A stretch of DNA of 45,680 bases, taken from assembly GCA_040757085.1 (NCBI GenBank), contig JBFLXJ010000025.1:1-45680 (forward strand), written 5' to 3'. Position 1 is the stretch's first letter; every line of letters begins with the position of its first letter. This stretch comes from Bacillota bacterium. Lineage in GTDB: Bacteria; Bacillota; Sulfobacillia; JACIYH01. Shown here piece after piece: positions 8,673 to 18,113 of this stretch. A program made the translations under genes and the position numbers. The notes beneath the pieces are model-generated. The model did no database searches. It was not told where the DNA came from and saw only the letters and a program-made list of their open reading frames with translations.

Positions 8673-9776
8673 TCAGAAGTGCGTCCATCCGCGTGCGCTG
8701 AGAGGGACTTCCCCGCCGCCGGAGAGCACCAGCCTGCAACCTGCGCCGGCTTCCGTGATTTCGCCTATCACGGAAACGGGGGTGCCAGTCGCTCCCAGTA
8801 CCGCCGCACGAATCACCTCGACCCCATGGGGCGGCACGCAAAACAGTAACTCGTAGTCCTCGCCGCCGCCCAGGGCCCAATCCAGGGGATCTAGCCCAAC
8901 CGCTTGTGCCAAGCGGCGGGTGGGGGCATCGATGGGGATCGTGTCAGCCCAAAGGCGAGCCCCCACGCCGCTGGCATCGCAGATGTGCCTTAGGTCGGCG
9001 GCCAGCCCGTCGCTCACGTCGATCATGGCTGTGGCCTGCCCGGTTGCGGCGATGGCATGCGCTTCGTGCAGGCGCGGCGTGGGAGTCTGATGGGCAGCCA
9101 GGACGCTATCCCTGTCCCGCTCGTCCACTCCCAGCGACGGATCCAAGAGCAGTGCGAGGCCGGCCGCAGACGCTCCCAGCCGGCCGGTGACCATGATGCG
9201 GTCACCGGGGCGCGCACCGTTTCGGCGCAAGAGCCGGGTGGGGGTCACCTCGCCCAGCAGGGTCAGATCGACCATCAGGCAGGCGGACCTGCTCATGTTG
9301 CCACCGATGACGTCCGCCCCGAAACGGGTCGCTTCGTCGCATATACCGTCGTAGAGGGCTTCCAGGAAGAAAACGGGGGTGTCAGCCGGGAGTGCGAGCG
9401 AGACGAGAAAGTGGGTGGGCCTCCCCGCCACTGCCGCGACGTCGCTCAGGTTGATGGCAGCCACCTTGCGGCCCAGGCGATAGGGATCGCACCTGTCCGG
9501 CAGGAAGTGGACGCCGGCCACCTGCACATCACACGTGGCCAGCAGGTAGCGATCGGGCGCGACCGCGATCACGGCCACGTCGTCTCCGATTCCCACCACC
9601 ACGTCGGGGTTGGGAGGCCTCAGGCGACGTGCCAGCCGCTCGATGAGGGGAAACTCGCCCAGGTCGGCAACTCGCAGGATGGGGCCCGAGTCCCGGGATG
9701 GCACGATCTCCGCGATGTCCGGCGACTTGTGGGATTGGTCTGGCCGACCCCTACCCCGCGACCTACGGGACGGCAT
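8673..9776 (-). CDS. thiL: thiamine-monophosphate kinase
   Basis: Phosphorylates thiamine monophosphate to thiamine diphosphate with ATP, the last step of the pathway. It has the AIR-synthase-like fold. Recognisable are the N-terminal LGEFPLIERLARR, the Mg/ATP motif GIGDDVAV, DPYRLGRKVAAINLSDVAA, the GGNMSRSACLMVDLTLLGEV segment and the C-terminal GGGEDYELLF. The start is uncertain. The ATG at 9776 has AGGGG upstream and overlaps thiM by 14 nt; a GTG at 9704 would give 343 aa, closer to the family's ~330. Last gene of the TPP-riboswitch operon. Fragments of a second copy lie at 1.2-1.4 kb. Confidence 0.93.
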   Translation of the reverse strand: MPSRRSRGRGRPDQSHKSPDIAEIVPSRDSGPILRVADLGEFPLIERLARRLRPPNPDVVVGIGDDVAVIAVAPDRYLLATCDVQVAGVHFLPDRCDPYRLGRKVAAINLSDVAAVAGRPTHFLVSLALPADTPVFFLEALYDGICDEATRFGADVIGGNMSRSACLMVDLTLLGEVTPTRLLRRNGARPGDRIMVTGRLGASAAGLALLLDPSLGVDERDRDSVLAAHQTPTPRLHEAHAIAATGQATAMIDVSDGLAADLRHICDASGVGARLWADTIPIDAPTRRLAQAVGLDPLDWALGGGEDYELLFCVPPHGVEVIRAAVLGATGTPVSVIGEITEAGAGCRLVLSGGGEVPLSARGWTHF

Positions 9777-12725: not shown

Positions 12726-12742
12726 CCTGTGATGCGCTGTAG

Positions 12743-12840
12743 GTCTCGTTCCCTACGCTGGCATTACCCAGGTCAGGTTCCACGGGTCGAGGGCATCACC
12801 AGCCCTCCTCTCAGCCCGGTTAAACCGAGCTCCCCGAGAC
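12743..12840 (-). promoter_or_regulatory. TPP riboswitch (THI element)
   Basis: Read on the minus strand it begins GTCTCGGGGAGCTC and ends with GGAACGAGAC, so the ends pair as P1 (GTCTCG/CGAGAC). Inside are the conserved cores GGGCTGAGAGG, GACCCGTGGAACCTGA and GGGTAATGCCAGCGTAGGGA, the family hallmarks. Binding of thiamine diphosphate would reduce expression of cytX-thiE-thiM-thiL. Confidence 0.97.
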
Positions 12841-12858
12841 GCCTATTCGCTTACCCAC

Positions 12859-14866: not shown

Positions 14867-15568
14867 CTAAAGCGAGAGCACCCGCCCCGGGGAAAGCAGC
14901 TTCTCGGCGATCTCGTACATGTTGGTCACCCGCCCCACGGCCAGCCTCTCCTTCAACTGGAAGTACTCCAGGCAGGTGCCACAGGACAGGATCTCCGTGC
15001 CTTTGTCCTGGAGTTGCGTGAGTTCCTCCAGCACAGGGCTGCCCTCCGTGGTGAGGTACACCCCGGAGTTGACGAAAATGAGGGTGTCCGGCGGAGAAGG
15101 AAGCTGGGTCAGCGTGTACAGGAAACTCCGCATGAGCACGCCGCCCAGTTCGTCCGACCCCCGCCCCAGCCGGTCCGTCCCCACCAGGATTACCTGGCCG
15201 TCGGCCACCTCCGCGTGTGGGCCCGCCTCGGTTGTGCGGGCTGCCTGCTCGCGTGGGCCAACTACCGCGGGCTCTCCGCCGCCCCCTCCCGGCCGGGCAG
15301 CCCGGAGCGGGGGACCGCCGGCGGGCGGCACCGCGTCGTCCCCCGGAGGCTCGTCAGGGGCGCGGGTAATGGTGAGGCGCCAGGTACCTGCTTCCTGTAC
15401 CACGTCTACGTGGTAACCCTGGCTGCGGGCAAACCGAGCCACATTCTCACGGGCGGCCTCGTTATCGACGATGCACACCACCGGGCCCTCGCCTTCCATA
15501 AGGGCCCTGCGCGTGTTGATGACGGGCTGGGGGCAGGGTAACCCCCGGTTATCCACCACTCTCTTCAT
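14867..15568 (-). CDS. yedF: sulfurtransferase-like selenium metabolism protein YedF
   Basis: A 233-aa two-domain protein. The N-terminal ~70 residues are a TusA-like domain with the reactive-cysteine motif GLPCPQPV. A Gly/Pro/Ala-rich linker (about 73-115) follows, then a DsrE-like domain with VILVGTDRLGRGSDELGG and a second cysteine motif ILSCGTCLEYF. This TusA-DsrE architecture defines the YedF family found with selenium genes. It sits 33 bp after selD on the same strand. The inferred role is to carry or deliver persulfide/perselenide between the desulfurase and SelD; no direct biochemical role is shown by the sequence. Confidence 0.92.
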   Translation of the reverse strand: MKRVVDNRGLPCPQPVINTRRALMEGEGPVVCIVDNEAARENVARFARSQGYHVDVVQEAGTWRLTITRAPDEPPGDDAVPPAGGPPLRAARPGGGGGEPAVVGPREQAARTTEAGPHAEVADGQVILVGTDRLGRGSDELGGVLMRSFLYTLTQLPSPPDTLIFVNSGVYLTTEGSPVLEELTQLQDKGTEILSCGTCLEYFQLKERLAVGRVTNMYEIAEKLLSPGRVLSL

Positions 15569-15601: not shown

Positions 15602-16645
15602 TCACCCCGGGGGCTGTAATTCCAGGGCCCAGGGTTTGCGGTCAACCGCCTCGCCAATCACCGTGGCGTCCACCCCCCGCTCCCGCAAGCGGTCAAGAGC
15701 GCGCTCCACCTCGGCGACGGGCAGGGCCACGAGCAGCCCGCCCGAGGTCTGGGGGTCGCACAGCAGCAAGACGTCTGTGTCGTCCACGCCTTCTGCCCGC
15801 AGACGCGGCCGGATCCATTCCCGGTTCCTGTAGGCACCCCCGGCGAACATCCCCATGGCTCCCAGTTCCCGGGCGCCTTCCAGGAGCGGAATGGCACCAA
15901 CCCGGAACACCAGGGTCACCCCGCTCGCCTCTGCCATCCCGGCAGCATGACCCAGGAGGCCAAAGCCGGTCACATCGGTGCAGGCACTGACCTTTACGCC
16001 CCGGAGGGCATCGCAGGCTCGGGCATTGAGGGTCCTCATGGTCTCAATGGCCCGCGACACCACCTCCGGAGGTGCCATCTCCGCTTTGGCGGCCGTGTTG
16101 ATGACACCGGTGCCCAGGGGCTTGGTGAGCACGAGGATGTCTCCCGGGCTCGCGGTGGAGTTGCGCCACAACTCGCCCGGATGAACCAGGCCGACCACCG
16201 CCAGCCCGTACTTGGGCTCGTCATCCTGGAGGGTGTGCCCACCGGCAAGGATGGCACCGGCCTCGGCCACCTTGTCCGCACCCCCCTTGAGGATGTCGGC
16301 CAACACCTCCACCGGCAGGCAAGAGGGAAACCCCACCAGGTTGAGGCAAACCAGGGGCCGGCCGCCCATGGCGTAGACGTCGGACAGGGCATTGGCGGCC
16401 GCGATCTGCCCGAAAGTGTATGGGTCATCCACCACGGGCGTGAAGAAGTCCACAGTGGCGACGAGAGCCCTTTCCTCGTCCAGAAGGTAGACGGCAGCAT
16501 CGTCACCCGTGTGTGGCCCCACCAGCAGGCGGGCATCTTCCGGTAGCGACAAGTGTCGCAGCACGTGCGACAGGGTCTCGGGACCCACCTTGGCCGCTCA
16601 ACCTGCTGCCTTGGTCATCTGCGTTAACCGGAACAAGCCGTCCAC
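15602..16645 (-). CDS. selD: selenide, water dikinase (selenophosphate synthase), selenocysteine-containing
   Basis: Makes selenophosphate, the selenium donor for selenocysteine. Read with UGA as stop, the gene seems to start at a GTG at 16588 and lacks its active-site motif. The frame continues upstream through UGA at 16600-16598 and reads LFRLTQMTKAAG-U-AAKVGPETL, which aligns with the canonical SelD N-terminus RLTQxxxxxGCxxK, with Sec at residue 16 in the catalytic cysteine position. The GTG at 16645 has GGAGG 6 nt upstream and overlaps the desulfurase stop, giving 347 aa as in the family. The rest is typical: HTGDDAAV, VDFFTPVVDDPYTFGQIAAA, ALSDVYAMGG, AGGHTLQDDEPKYGL, DPQTSGGLL. Lys at residue 19 follows the Sec as expected. 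Confidence 0.95.
16555..16600 (-). promoter_or_regulatory. UGA selenocysteine codon and candidate bacterial SECIS hairpins of selD
   Basis: The UGA is 16600-16598. Two hairpins follow in the coding RNA: a 5-bp stem GGGUC/GACCC with loop CCGA (16586-16573), whose loop starts about 17 nt after UGA, and a 6-bp stem GUCGCA/UGCGAC with a 5-nt loop CGUGC (16571-16555), whose loop starts about 33 nt after UGA. Both fall in the range known for bacterial SECIS elements. Which one SelB uses is not decided. Confidence 0.55.
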
Positions 16646-17856
16646 CCCCTTCCTCCCGGCCTCTCTCGCCGCAGGCGAGCGGCGACGCGGGCCACCGCGC
16701 TCACGACGTAGTCCACCTCTTCCAGGGTGTTAGAGTACCCGAGGCTGATGCGCACCGTCCCTGCCGGATAAGTACCTGCGGTACGGTGGGCCCAGGGAGC
16801 GCAGTGCAGCCCGGTCCTCACCATCACCCCGAAATCGGAGTCCAGGAGTTCCCCCACCCGGGCGGGGTCGGCCCCTGCCACGGTGAAGGAAACCAGGGCG
16901 ACCCGGGCCTGGGCGTCCGGCGGACCGTGCACCCTCACCCCCGGGATGTCCCGCAGCCCGTCGAGCAGCCGCGACGCCAGTCCCAGTTCGTGCTGGCGCA
17001 CCGCATCCGTACCCACATCCGCCAGGTAGCGCACGGCGGCGCCCAGCCCGGCCAGACCCACCCCGTTCAGGGTACCGCTCTCGTAAACATCAGGCAAGAG
17101 GTCGGGTTGTTCTTCCAGATGGGATAAGCTCCCCGTCCCTCCCCGCACCAGGGGTCGCGGGCTGATGCCCTCACGTATGTAAAGGCCCCCCGTCCCCTGC
17201 GGCCCCAGCAGAGCCTTGTGCCCGGTGAAGGCGACGAGGTCGAGATCCATCCCGGTCACGTCCAGGGGCAGGCAGCCGGCGGTCTGGGCGGCGTCCACCA
17301 GGACGAGGGCCCCCTCCTCGTGGGCGAGCCGGGCCGCCGCGGCCACGGGCAGGATCGTCCCCGTTACGTTGGAAGCGTGGGTAAGCACTACCAGCCGCGT
17401 GCGGCGACCGAGGGCCCGCCGCAGATCATCGAGGTCAAGGTGACCCTCGGGACTGCACCTTACGCGGGTGACGTCTACCCCCCGTGCCCTCAGGTCATAA
17501 AGAGGCCGGGCCACCGCATTGTGTTCCACGGTGGATGTGACCACGTGATCCCCCGGCTCGAGTAGCCCGTATAGAGCCAGATTAATGCCCCAGGTGGCAT
17601 TGGGGCCAAATACGATCCGGGCCTCGTGGCTACACCCCAGGAACCGCGCCACGGCCTGCCTGGTGGCAAACACGGCCCGGGCTGCGGCCACGGCCAGCCG
17701 GTGGGCCGACCGGCCCGGGTTGGCTCCCGCCTGCTCCAGGTAATCCACCATGGCCCGCGCCACCGGGGGCGGCTTGGGCCAGGAGGTGGCGGCATGGTCC
17801 GCATACACTATCCGGCCGTCGAGGCTTCCCCGGCAGGCCCGCAGCCCCGCCCCCAT
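16624..17856 (-). CDS. cysteine desulfurase / selenocysteine lyase-type class V aminotransferase
   Basis: A PLP enzyme of 410 aa that removes sulfur (or selenium) from cysteine (selenocysteine) as an enzyme-bound persulfide. Landmarks: IVYADHAATSWPKP, NPGRSAHRLAVAAA, the PLP-contacting VDAAQTAGCLPLDV, the lysine motif FTGHKALLGPQGTGGLYI and the catalytic cysteine in RTGLHCAPWAHRT. The sequence resembles the class V subfamily commonly placed beside selD, rather than IscS/NifS. The ATG at 17856 overlaps the DUF3343 stop (TGATG) with GGAGG 9 nt upstream; its own end overlaps selD. Probably supplies selenium to SelD. Confidence 0.92.
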   Translation of the reverse strand: MGAGLRACRGSLDGRIVYADHAATSWPKPPPVARAMVDYLEQAGANPGRSAHRLAVAAARAVFATRQAVARFLGCSHEARIVFGPNATWGINLALYGLLEPGDHVVTSTVEHNAVARPLYDLRARGVDVTRVRCSPEGHLDLDDLRRALGRRTRLVVLTHASNVTGTILPVAAAARLAHEEGALVLVDAAQTAGCLPLDVTGMDLDLVAFTGHKALLGPQGTGGLYIREGISPRPLVRGGTGSLSHLEEQPDLLPDVYESGTLNGVGLAGLGAAVRYLADVGTDAVRQHELGLASRLLDGLRDIPGVRVHGPPDAQARVALVSFTVAGADPARVGELLDSDFGVMVRTGLHCAPWAHRTAGTYPAGTVRISLGYSNTLEEVDYVVSAVARVAARLRRERPGGRGWTACSG

Positions 17857-18113
17857 CAGCATTCCCCTCCGGAGCACCCCGGCGTGTTAGCCGGCGGTTC
17901 CACGGGAAACACCCCCGCCACCTGCACCTCGCCGCGGGTCGCCAGATCCAGTGCCCGTTCCCGGTACTCGTCCTCAAGGGCGATCGCCACGCCACAGGCC
18001 TCCGAAATCCAGCGGGGAGTGGGGATCAGGCTGTGGGGGATGCGCTCGTCGCTCAGGATGGCATCGAGCTTAATGGCATTGTGGGGGTTGGGGAAGACGA
18101 TGCAGATTCGCAT
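17856..18113 (-). CDS. DUF3343 protein, putative Se/S carrier
   Basis: An 85-aa protein beginning MRICIVFPNPHNAIKLDAIL. It has the RIPHSLIPTPRWISEACGVAI segment in which Pro-Thr-Pro-Arg and a following Cys are characteristic of DUF3343. The C-terminus carries two more cysteines (GCSGGEC). The family is repeatedly found with selD, yedF and class V desulfurases and has been proposed to carry sulfur or selenium; that role is an inference. It lies 3 bp after gltX and overlaps the desulfurase start, so all are in one transcript. Confidence 0.9.
   Translation of the reverse strand: MRICIVFPNPHNAIKLDAILSDERIPHSLIPTPRWISEACGVAIALEDEYRERALDLATRGEVQVAGVFPVEPPANTPGCSGGEC

Follow-up and report, generated by a model that had tools for sequence, protein, structure and literature searches.

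Sequence evidence for a standard selenocysteine-type selD gene, with UGA at its catalytic codon, in a bacterium of the Bacillota

The window analyzed here (that is, the whole stretch of 45,680 nucleotides) carries, in minus-strand order, gltX, a gene for a DUF3343 protein, a gene of the cysteine desulfurase family, selD, yedF, and an aldehyde ferredoxin oxidoreductase gene (Table 1), with the end of the desulfurase gene overlapping the start of selD by 22 bases. SelD has been described since 2015 as associated with YedF, a selenocysteine lyase and DUF3343 (PMC5322559), and, as in that selenium cluster, all four genes are adjacent here; unlike in that cluster, the aldehyde ferredoxin oxidoreductase gene comes next, and a search of the genome for yqeB, a gene of the Se-dependent molybdenum hydroxylase trait, was negative. 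A TPP riboswitch (12733-12846) lies just 3' of the aldehyde ferredoxin oxidoreductase gene and shares its minus strand, and a fluoride riboswitch was detected at 1681-1742 on the plus strand. The window also contains a second, distant SelD/AIR-synthase-like match (8904-9623, minus strand; 91.8 bits, below the SelD cut-off), which is probably a relative of ThiL- or HypE-type kinases.

Table 1. Positions of the features of the selD locus within the window
Feature	Position	Strand	Basis
selD, full length, with UGA read as putative selenocysteine	15602..16645	-	GTG start at 16645; TIGR00476 (E 1.2e-118) and direct reading
In-frame TGA, putative selenocysteine codon at the catalytic position	16598..16600	-	alignment with Cys-type SelD; TGA conserved in relatives
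Ribosome binding site GGGAGGAAGGGG	16646..16657	-	direct reading
Candidate bSECIS hairpin, UGUCGCA-CGUGC-UGCGACA region	16554..16573	-	folding; conservation vs. synonymous shuffles
yedF, selenium-metabolism sulfurtransferase-like	14867..15568	-	TIGR03527 (E 4.5e-60); PF01206
Cysteine desulfurase family / selenocysteine lyase-like	16624..17877	-	TIGR01977 (E 6e-135); NF040779 SclA (E 1.2e-115, below its cut-off)
DUF3343, putative Se/S carrier	17856..18113	-	PF11823 (E 5e-16)

Read directly on the minus strand from GTG 16645, the gene begins GTG GAC GGC TTG TTC CGG TTA ACG CAG ATG ACC AAG GCA GCA GGT TGA GCG GCC AAG GTG GGT CCC, and this frame translates as MDGLFRLTQMTKAAG-UGA-AAKVGPETL... The read-through product matched TIGR00476 at 395.9 bits (cut-off 125) over profile positions 1-307 of 311; that is, it is a full-length SelD match above the curated cut-off. 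Its N-terminal loop contains the catalytic Cys/Sec position and the Lys three residues on, with G-U-A-A-K aligning with G-C-G-C-K and G-C-A-A-K, and hence the in-frame UGA stands opposite the Cys of homologues and is flanked by coding sequence on both sides, the pattern by which bacterial selenoproteins are recognized. This site is the equivalent of Cys17 in E. coli SelD. The initial annotation, which had proposed a selD with an in-frame UGA at the catalytic position, was correct to the base in both sequence and coordinates; its reading of RLTQMTKAAG-UGA-AAKVGPE as the conserved SelD N-terminus agrees with a profile match that begins at position 1, and the extended protein aligns with both Sec- and Cys-type SelD. 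The good ribosome site it had assigned to GTG 16645 is also there, immediately 5' of the start and with its GGAGG core 6 nt ahead.

Mechanical ORF calling, as the same annotation had stated for the conventional reading, instead starts selD at GTG 16588 (15602-16588, a product of 328 aa). Were this output taken at face value, the true product would be a truncated SelD that lacks the catalytic loop, and the similarity upstream of it would be a remnant. However, no obvious Shine-Dalgarno sequence precedes GTG 16588, and the region upstream of it encodes the essential Sec/Cys and Lys. Further evidence against a start at 16588 came from the relatives of the source organism. Specifically, a TIGR00476 search of 101 genomes (its own and 100 relatives of the class, nearly all from other families) returned SelD matches above the cut-off in 69 genomes, and all of these matches except two (one in G021 and one in G072) contain exactly one in-frame TGA. 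At the 30 loci read, the catalytic residue was U in 29, each within the motif RLTQxTxxxG-U-xxK-xGP, and C in the remaining one (L029). UGA is thus kept in nearly all relatives, across many families, and Sec-type SelDs are the norm among them. The three genus members compared share RLTQMTKAAG ahead of the UGA and AAKVGPETLSHVLR behind it without any difference in sequence; in the three pairwise comparisons, the ten codons preceding the UGA show 3, 4 and 3 codon differences and 0 amino acid changes, whereas the six codons ahead of those ten diverge freely (four of six residues differ). Such synonymous-only change, with divergence just ahead of it, indicates that the SelD protein that is translated and selected includes the segment preceding the UGA, and the ten codons are, judging from these comparisons, under purifying selection among the congeners. 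Taken with the missing Shine-Dalgarno sequence and the essential residues upstream, this makes a true start at 16588 very improbable, and we favor GTG 16645.

The recurrence of the TGA also bears on the possibility that it is an error of sequencing or has arisen only recently by mutation of a Cys-type selD. Cys-type SelDs in the same AAK context are known (L029, L056 and L086), which lends this idea its plausibility; however, two congeners with independent assemblies have the same TGA, as do most relatives, which rules out sequencing error (the objection the initial annotation had raised against itself), and a SECIS-type hairpin is maintained through synonymous choice (below). Hence, we regard an error or recent mutation as having practically no chance of being correct, and retain a selenocysteine codon as the reading of the TGA. 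As for the two SelD genes without TGA (L029, on contig C218 of G021, and one on contig C132 of G072), their genomes also carry a Sec-type selD, and the catalytic loop of L029 reads GCAAK. Several other relatives (e.g., G042, G019, G066 and G081) have two Sec-type selD genes.

Folding of the 50 nt after the UGA gave a hairpin, GUCGCA-CGUGC-UGCGAC, whose loop starts about 32 nt past the UGA and has G at its second position, followed by U. The published bSECIS model calls for a G at the first or second position of the loop and a spacing of 16-37 nt after the UGA (PMC13188914), and the selD hairpin fits it in both distance and loop G. In the window alone, the 50 nt downstream of the UGA were no better than shuffles (z -0.36), and 60 nt gave z -2.05. 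At the corresponding site in most relatives, on the other hand, stands GGCGCAG-GUN-CUGCGCC or a variant of it, and across 29 UGA genes the mean hairpin energy was -10.4 kcal/mol vs. -5.2 (sd 0.58) for synonymous-codon shuffles, with 6.1 of 7 positions paired vs. 4.7 (sd 0.19), an excess that is overstated to some degree because the shuffle null counts related sequences as independent. Of the hairpin tests, only this comparative one is strong. The canonical 7-pair hairpin is absent at this position in some relatives (L030, L031, L033 and L042), and the only Cys paralogue examined, L029, forms 4 of 7 pairs and has no such hairpin.

The initial annotation had made its reading depend on selA, selB and selC, and all three are present in the source genome (2.67 Mb, 98% complete), as befits a genome with a bacterial selenoprotein. 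Profile searches found selA (E 3e-168, above cut-off; contig C17) and selB (E 2e-102, above the curated cut-off; contig C12, with two matched segments summing to 384 bits vs. a cut-off of 242), and tRNA-Sec scored 75.7 bits (gathering score 47; contig C23), with UCA as its anticodon according to ARAGORN; the three thus lie on different contigs. A specific tRNA-Sec(UCA) together with selA and selB argues against a general suppressor or a change of code that would give the TGA another amino acid, and so does the normal termination of this very selD at a TGA (...CCGGGGTGA). We found no point in support of such decoding and give it next to no credence; selenocysteine remains the reading we adopt. 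Use of selenocysteine by the organism, as originally claimed, is accordingly supported by selA, selB, tRNA-Sec(UCA), the UGA in relatives and the bSECIS hairpin, and the organism should be counted among selenocysteine users.

The Sec machinery appears to serve more than SelD. An AhpC/TSA search of the genome revealed a TlpA/ResA-type redoxin that resembles a lipoprotein (L134; 1426-1977, minus strand, contig C18) with a single in-frame TGA, whose active site reads FWGTT-U-PACHTEM within a thioredoxin fold (PF00578, E 4e-29), that is, with UGA at the first active-site position, and with a SECIS-like hairpin with GU in the loop just downstream of the UGA. This gene is a probable second selenoprotein gene by sequence, and SelD is therefore probably not the sole selenoprotein. 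At the Sec position of the formate dehydrogenase-like catalytic subunit (L047), the residue seems to be Cys (RLCHASSV), five FlpD/MvhD-like domains contain no stop, selenouridine synthase (ybbB) was not found in the genome, and a GrdB search gave no match in any control genome.

Collectively, these results indicate that selD here is almost certainly a standard selenocysteine-type selD in which the UGA at codon 16 is read as Sec, and its annotation should run from 16645. Both the insertion of Sec and the selenophosphate synthetase activity of the product are inferences from sequence in our model. Under this model, the selD mRNA would be translated from GTG 16645, and the UGA would be decoded by tRNA-Sec (selC), charged via SelA and delivered by SelB, the latter binding the bSECIS hairpin just downstream of the UGA. 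The resulting selenide, water dikinase would convert selenide and ATP to selenophosphate, with its Sec located in a flexible N-terminal loop that handles selenium, and SelD synthesis would thus require SelD's own product. SelD probably receives its selenium from, or by way of, the neighboring DUF3343, desulfurase/Sec-lyase-like and YedF proteins, as far as their predicted roles suggest.

Compared with E. coli-type Cys SelD, the protein shares the fold family and the position of the catalytic Lys, whereas Sec replaces the catalytic Cys and Ala replaces the second Cys (GUAAK, not GUGCK); the two Cys of the E. coli protein are Cys17 and Cys19. A literature search for roles of Cys17, Cys19 and Lys20 returned nothing on SelD. 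We considered the absence of the second Cys as a special feature and rejected it, since it is common: at the Sec-form loci read, a sample biased to close relatives, this position is Ala in 24, Cys in 21, Ser in 6 and Gly in 1, and 7 of the 17 Cys-form SelDs read also lack the second Cys. It is conceivable, although we consider it unlikely, that GUAAK and GUGCK forms are functional subtypes, the former using another selenium hand-over (e.g., from the desulfurase, DUF3343 or YedF); the loop variation could give a modest clue to the way in which SelD acquires selenium.

Finally, the closest Sec-SelDs belong to the same family. The selD on plasmid pMM59_01 of Pusillibacter faecalis has its UGA at the same position in almost the same motif (LTQMTRAAG-U-AAKLGP), and chromosomal homologues such as that of Desulfovirgula thermocuniculi are likewise Sec-SelD / SPS2 proteins (TIGR00476) with UGA at that position. 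These proteins share about 52-60% identity overall with the protein described here, depend on selA/selB as here, and show no functional difference from it. The plasmid gene is publicly annotated at full length across its TGA; hence, the earlier expectation that gene callers truncate such proteins holds for simple ORF callers but not for every pipeline. Among prokaryotic selenoprotein families, Sec-containing SelD ranks second in how widespread it is, and lists of widespread selenoproteins have included it since at least 2005-2006 (PMC1273633, PMC1794560); in 2006, it and FdhA had the broadest distribution of all bacterial selenoproteins (PMC1794560). The UGA-containing selD of the window is thus not novel, being one more instance of a well-described family.
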